A stretch of DNA of 64,000 nt from the NCBI RefSeq assembly GCF_048771995.1, contig NC_133026.1, positions 151,799,001 through 151,863,000 on the forward strand. Reading direction: 5' to 3'. Position 1 is the first letter of the stretch; each line of letters opens with the position of its first letter. Below, piece by piece: positions 19,593 through 39,272 of the stretch. Source of the stretch: Taeniopygia guttata. Taxonomy: Eukaryota > Chordata > Aves > Passeriformes > Estrildidae. The notes under the pieces were generated by a model, which worked only from the letters and a program-made list of their open reading frames with translations, did no database searches and had not been told where the DNA came from. The position numbers and the translations under genes are program-made.

Positions 19593-19799
19593 ATGGCGGC
19601 GCCCGGAGCCCCCGGGCCGGGCCCGGCCGCCGCCCCCACGGTGCTGATGGCGGCCCGCGCCGAGCTGGCCGCGCCCTGCCGCCTCCTGCCCGCCAGCGCC
19701 GGCGCCGCGCTCCGCCTGCAGCTCAGCGTGCAACCGGGGAACGACGGGCGGCGCCGCTTCCGCCTGGCGCTGCGGGCGGCGGAGGCGGGGGGCGGCGCG
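19593..19799 (+). CDS. SHARPIN: SHARPIN exon 1 (PH-like domain, first part)
   Basis: Starts with [11 protein letters not shown] and holds [20 protein letters not shown], matching human LRRLQLSADPERPGRFRLEL. Donor GTGAGG follows codon 69. Confidence 0.93.

Positions 19800-39272: not shown

Follow-up and report, generated by a model that had tools for sequence, protein, structure and literature searches.

LUBAC is taught as HOIP together with two helpers that cannot stand in for one another, SHARPIN and HOIL-1L. A gene on contig C3 of the zebra finch assembly, within the window (the whole stretch of 64,000 nucleotides analysed here), appears to join features of both helpers in a single chain. 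The locus raises the question of whether this chain is the product of one real gene, whether its ligase half is likely to be active, and whether a separate HOIL-1L gene (RBCK1) stands beside it in the same genome.

A spliced model built from open frames runs on the plus strand from an ATG to a TGA at 19593-39272 and consists of 14 exons in phase, with all 13 introns starting in GT, ending in AG and having consistent phases. The coding sequence is 2343 nt including the stop and the predicted protein has 780 amino acids which, from the N- to the C-terminus, incorporate a Sharpin PH domain, an LUBAC-tethering motif (LTM), a UBL, an NZF, a RING1-IBR-RING2 (RBR) module and a C-terminal end reading CQNCH. 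The features of the locus, with the basis for each in brackets, are as follows:

19593..19799, plus strand: exon 1, start codon and first half of the SHARPIN PH domain (splice model, Pfam)
21118..21343, plus strand: exon 2, second half of the PH domain (splice model, Pfam)
21975..22166, plus strand: exon 3, linker containing a coding minisatellite of 24 nt (splice model, repeat analysis)
23449..23590, plus strand: exon 4, LTM (splice model, Pfam, PDB)
26942..27032, plus strand: exon 5, first part of the UBL (splice model, PDB)
28178..28577, plus strand: exon 6, remainder of the UBL and a repeat-rich linker (splice model, PDB, repeat analysis)
29338..29471, plus strand: exon 7, linker N-terminal to the NZF (splice model)
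32484..32657, plus strand: exon 8, NZF zinc finger followed by an NZF tail of HOIL-1L type (splice model, Pfam, PDB)
35615..35775, plus strand: exon 9, helix preceding RING1 and first part of RING1 (splice model, PDB)
36521..36632, plus strand: exon 10, remainder of RING1 (splice model, PDB)
37579..37758, plus strand: exon 11, RING1-IBR helix and IBR (splice model, PDB)
37838..37936, plus strand: exon 12, end of the IBR and IBR-RING2 helix (splice model, PDB)
38527..38670, plus strand: exon 13, RING2 with the predicted catalytic Cys730 (KKDGCDW) (splice model, PDB)
39192..39272, plus strand: exon 14, zinc cluster of the C-terminus, with His780 as last residue (CQNCH), and stop codon (splice model, PDB)
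39944..39949, plus strand: first AATAAA downstream of the start codon (motif scan)

The initial annotation had called this the SHARPIN locus, and the neighbouring genes and the PH, LTM and UBL matches bear this out. The gene lies between pieces of MAF1 (minus strand, 17536 down to 3757) and of CYC1 (minus strand, 45969 down to 40924). Both neighbours were named from sequence motifs, and the MAF1-SHARPIN-CYC1 order is that of human 8q24.3. In Pfam, where the scores are whole-protein scores for the 780-residue composite, four domains lie above cut-off: Sharpin_PH (residues 13-145, E 1.4e-20), LTM (210-248, E 1.1e-11), the RanBP-type zinc finger (467-491, E 1.9e-6) and the zf-C3HC4 RING (552-594, E 1.7e-5). 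The ubiquitin (267-320, E 1.6e-5) and IBR (E 1.9e-4) matches fall slightly under it. The PH domain is also matched by PDB 4emo (E 4.4e-6).

For the chain beyond the NZF, the best PDB match is the helix-RBR of human HOIL-1 (8eaz), which covers residues 502-780 without a gap (E 2.7e-116), and a second human HOIL-1 structure, 7yui, covers residues 463-692, again gap-free. When the RBR piece was compared alone it scored 376 bits with HOIL-1 and 31 bits with the next RBR, ARIH2. The predicted module is HOIL-1-like and of no other RBR type. The proposal that the chain runs on through the NZF into a complete HOIL-1L-type RBR thus holds, with 14 exons in phase and a gap-free HOIL-1 match, and as a gene model the SHARPIN/HOIL-1L composite is confirmed on sequence grounds as real, far past chance.

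Aligned from the NZF tail to the C-terminus, 169 of 279 residues (60.6%) are identical to human HOIL-1, a count in which the active-site Ala of the crystallised HOIL-1 mutant is scored as a mismatch; the composite has C730 at this position. Cysteines and histidines of human HOIL-1 in this stretch are retained at 30 of 33 positions. The earlier statement that every zinc ligand is present stands for the cysteines, all 25 of which are kept, but not as worded for the histidines, where five of eight are kept and H265, H396 and H469 differ, although the literature consulted does not name these three as ligands. All human cysteines of RING2 are among those retained, so that the cysteines of the predicted Zn2/Cys6 C-terminal cluster are present. 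C730, W732, E741 and H780 of the composite align with C460, W462, E471 and H510 of HOIL-1, and the catalytic Cys and terminal His are therefore placed as in HOIL-1L, as first annotated. Two papers describe C460 as the active-site Cys of HOIL-1, with W462 at the position normally occupied by a His and H510, at the C-terminus, as the catalytic base inside the Zn2/Cys6 extension (PMC9834252; PMC9853177).

The composite thus has the RING1-IBR-RING2 arrangement with a predicted catalytic Cys in RING2 that places it among RBR E3 ligases, and the Trp two residues after that Cys and the terminal His that place it with HOIL-1L. Two substitutions count against our preferred explanation: HOIL-1 D385, which touches H510 in one structure (PMC9853177), is Ala655 in the composite, and Leu628 stands in place of I358, a residue of the allosteric ubiquitin site. 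On balance, the composite is very likely an active HOIL-1-type ligase.

It could still be argued that the two halves do not form one product, and that a mammal-like SHARPIN ends near the NZF and is followed by a separate, untranslated or decaying RBR. Such a division would be favoured by the intron that separates exon 8 from exon 9, 2957 nt of minisatellite carrying decoy splice sites. However, exons 8 and 9 both lie within the single gap-free HOIL-1 match, and neither AATAAA nor ATTAAA occurs on the plus strand from start to stop, the first AATAAA being at 39944. GC at codon positions 1, 2 and 3 of exons 8-14 is 0.697, 0.527 and 0.962, and the difference between the third and second positions, together with the full set of cysteines, points to coding constraint on the RBR half. 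We regard two transcription units, or an untranslated RBR, as very improbable.

The introns of the gene are built of minisatellites, whose units carry exon edges and splice sites, in the stretches 27216-28178, 29783-31067, 31859-32484, 32670-34708, 34896-35615 and 37341-37579. Extra copies of exon starts number nine for exon 6, three for exon 8, eight for exon 9 and two for exon 11. Under a strict 24-nt test, copies turned up elsewhere for 4 of the 13 acceptor edges and 2 of the 13 donor edges, compared with 2 of 14 mid-exon pieces, both within coding repeats. The copied edges give rows of decoy splice sites, and one of them, an exon 9 acceptor at 35534, begins an open stretch (35534-35615) that reads in frame into the true exon 9, making a longer alternative exon 9 possible. 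Coding minisatellites lengthen the linkers in exon 3 (21990-22110) and exon 6 (28325-28507), with units such as TSLVPPAG and GTAPG-like ones, and the final codons and stop (PQCQNCH and stop) recur in tandem in the 3' flank at 39246-39400. The neighbours are similarly affected: an exon start of MAF1 is present three times (7184-7594, minus strand) and one of CYC1 twice (44747-44905, minus strand), each after an AG.

Whether a separate RBCK1 exists was addressed in one assembly (1.14 Gb, 41 contigs), with searches that score best candidates only. All 11 matches of the window's own RBR lay inside the window, as did the one match of the Pfam LTM profile, and the two matches of Sharpin_PH were the two PH exons of the composite gene. 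The human HOIL-1 RBR gave 12 matches, six of them inside the window and the other six at E 0.012-0.81, and the N-terminal half of human HOIL-1L (LTM-UBL-NZF) gave ten, six inside and four at E 0.0047-0.86. These five whole-genome searches of one assembly, scored for best candidates, gave no convincing RBCK1 or SHARPIN match outside the window.

The outside matches of the human HOIL-1 RBR on C15, C5 and C20 are plain RING fingers by translation, and the remaining weak ones are on C11, C23 and C4. Among the matches of the N-terminal half, that on C8 (E 0.0047) lies in an open frame that encodes three NZF fingers and was read as ZRANB1. In a separate comparison, a weak match of the same half on sequence L038 (E 0.11) was judged to be chance.

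The neighbourhood expected for RBCK1 was also inspected. In human, the gene order is TRIB3-RBCK1-TBC1D20-CSNK2A1, with TBC1D20 as the neighbour of RBCK1. In the finch, CSNK2A1 lies on contig C22 at 8356798-8364152 and TBC1D20 at about 8343778-8349795, with HM13 about 22 kb past TBC1D20. No RBCK1 was found near TBC1D20 in 70 kb (C22:8306001-8356000 and 8366001-8386000) containing 0 N. A weak HOIL-1 match in this region (E 0.004 and 0.007 in two comparisons) overlaps an HM13 exon in a different frame and was rejected; the exon agrees at 25/25 with a piece of HM13. The CSNK2A1 search also brought up many kinase-like open frames, nearly identical to one another and arrayed at about 14-kb spacing on C5 (60.14-61.26 Mb and 63.57-63.86 Mb), conceivably a PIM-type expansion.

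Because neither the genome searches nor the TBC1D20 region gave an RBCK1, the composite is probably this animal's only HOIL-1L/SHARPIN gene, and the simplest reading of these sequences is that RBCK1 has been lost or displaced and the composite stands alone. The suggestion of a second ester-forming ligase in this animal's LUBAC is accordingly not upheld, as the composite appears to be the sole ligase of this kind. Assemblies of bird microchromosomes are often incomplete, and this, together with the use of one assembly, of best-candidate scoring and of sequence in which withheld stretches read as N, leaves some room for a real and active composite working with a HOIL-1L whose RBCK1 gene was missed through an assembly gap, a masked stretch or the limits of the search. 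Against this, the human HOIL-1 queries picked up exons of the composite at 54-82% identity and would be expected to reveal an RBCK1 orthologue as well; moreover, the genome holds a single LTM, the TBC1D20 region has 0 N and no RBCK1, and even HOIP, on a 4.8-Mb contig, was detected. We therefore consider a missed RBCK1 unlikely, while giving it some weight. A paper on the HOIL-1L NZF compares species including chicken (PMC10511788), and the chicken sequence may be either the composite gene or a true RBCK1; in the latter case RBCK1 would not be lost in all birds.

The remaining member of the complex was sought in the same genome. The HOIP LDD profile matches contig C38 at 881555-881653 (E 0.0015) and 884774-884869 (E 4.9e-6), and an IBR match lies at 874675. 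Joined open pieces from this contig match human RNF31 at E 2e-74 and include ALARGGC, the stretch around the HOIP catalytic Cys. Two pieces match the UBA_HOIP profile weakly and under cut-off (E 0.0028 and 0.0018); together they match the human HOIP UBA at E 3.9e-9, over its UBA2 part. A predicted HOIP gene is thus present on C38 with the RBR, the LDD and the UBA2 docking module. For UBA1 there is on C38 a piece resembling the first helix only, with no Pfam match, which we count against our preferred explanation, UBA1 being the face that binds SHARPIN (PMC6044281). A genome search with the HOIP UBA profile gave one weak match elsewhere, which was read as NUB1. HOIP itself, at C38:846001-886000, is divergent, and its introns are repeat-rich too.

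How the composite came about was approached through pairwise identities with human sequences. The PH domain is common to SHARPIN only (46/112 identical), the LTM is equally close to SHARPIN and HOIL-1L (21/41 and 20/41), the UBL is nearer to SHARPIN (48/78 vs 40/78 for HOIL-1L), the NZF leans slightly to HOIL-1L (20/26 vs 18/26), and the NZF tail (19/54) and RBR (155/235) can be compared with HOIL-1L only. The PDB scores of the LTM-UBL region agree, at 125.5 bits for mouse Sharpin and 110.1 bits for HOIL-1L. Like mammalian SHARPIN, the composite has the MAF1/CYC1 locus, the PH, LTM, UBL and NZF, and a UBL closest to that protein, but SHARPIN ends soon after the NZF (at 387 amino acids) whereas the composite adds an NZF tail and a full RBR. 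It shares with HOIL-1L the LTM, UBL, NZF and RBR in the same order, and a RING2 with an extended Cys-rich C-terminus and terminal His. Unlike the composite, however, HOIL-1L begins at the LTM without PH exons, and its human gene lies beside TBC1D20, while in the finch the composite is on C3 and TBC1D20 on C22. HOIP is likewise an RBR ligase and a LUBAC partner, but is a separate gene on C38 with an LDD and an RBR of a different subfamily.

This domain pattern fits an old composite later shortened in mammals and, equally, a chimera formed by recombination of the two paralogues, with SHARPIN supplying the 5' half and RBCK1 the 3' half. The latter would explain both the added RBR and the missing RBCK1, and is in keeping with a UBL nearer human SHARPIN, a HOIL-1L-like sequence from the NZF onward and the failure to find RBCK1 elsewhere. 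Yet mammalian SHARPIN has no sequence past the NZF, and loss in mammals predicts the same pattern; the RBR identity to human HOIL-1L is no higher than an old paralogue should show, an argument to be read with the divergence of this bird's HOIP in mind. A zebrafish gene with the symbol shrprbck1r, "sharpin and rbck1 related", also points to an older composite: its name implies features of both proteins, the likeness being one of name only, and suggests that the composite architecture has been annotated elsewhere. We prefer the ancestral full-length form as plausible because of this symbol, which is a lead and not a test, and hold the chimera to be distinctly unlikely. The symbol does not occur in the main text of PMC12979160, and no description of a PH-plus-RBR SHARPIN was found in the accessible open-licence literature searched.

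We propose, with fair but not strong confidence, that the composite gene does the work of both SHARPIN and HOIL-1L, with no separate RBCK1 left. According to PMC6044281, mouse SHARPIN and HOIL-1L bind the UBA1 and UBA2 of HOIP while their two LTMs lock the pair together, and mutation of HOIL-1L L15/V19 or mouse SHARPIN L176/I180 abolishes the trimeric core. The composite has L215 and V219 at the aligned positions, and by sequence it contains the LTM and UBL, the parts with which SHARPIN binds HOIL-1L and HOIP. It would dock on HOIP by way of the UBL, with UBA2 as at least one of the sites, and two composites would pair through LTM and PH, on a single HOIP or on several, replacing the HOIL-1L/SHARPIN heterodimer; the SHARPIN PH domain dimerises weakly, with a Kd of 88-160 uM (PMC9884707). 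The NZF would read linear chains, RING1 would take ubiquitin from an E2, and Cys730/His780 would transfer it to hydroxyl groups in the manner of HOIL-1. Each helper of the complex would then carry a HOIL-1-type ligase, and LUBAC here would be a two-gene machine of HOIP and the composite.

The composite is a variation on the known LUBAC helpers and not a different type of system. More tentatively, and at slightly less than even odds in our judgement, birds, or this lineage, run LUBAC with HOIP and one self-pairing composite, RBCK1 having been lost, and mammals kept both loci and stripped SHARPIN of its ligase. If this is correct, the sharing out of tasks among HOIL-1L and SHARPIN would be a lineage-specific split and not a requirement. 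Gene names would also be poor ground for inferring that SHARPIN or HOIL-1L is absent in birds. A species with one composite helper would offer a natural experiment on which SHARPIN and HOIL-1L segments have to lie on different chains, on whether the HOIL-1L ligase must sit on every complex, and on the purpose of the SHARPIN PH domain, which a review describes as enigmatic in its role (PMC9884707).
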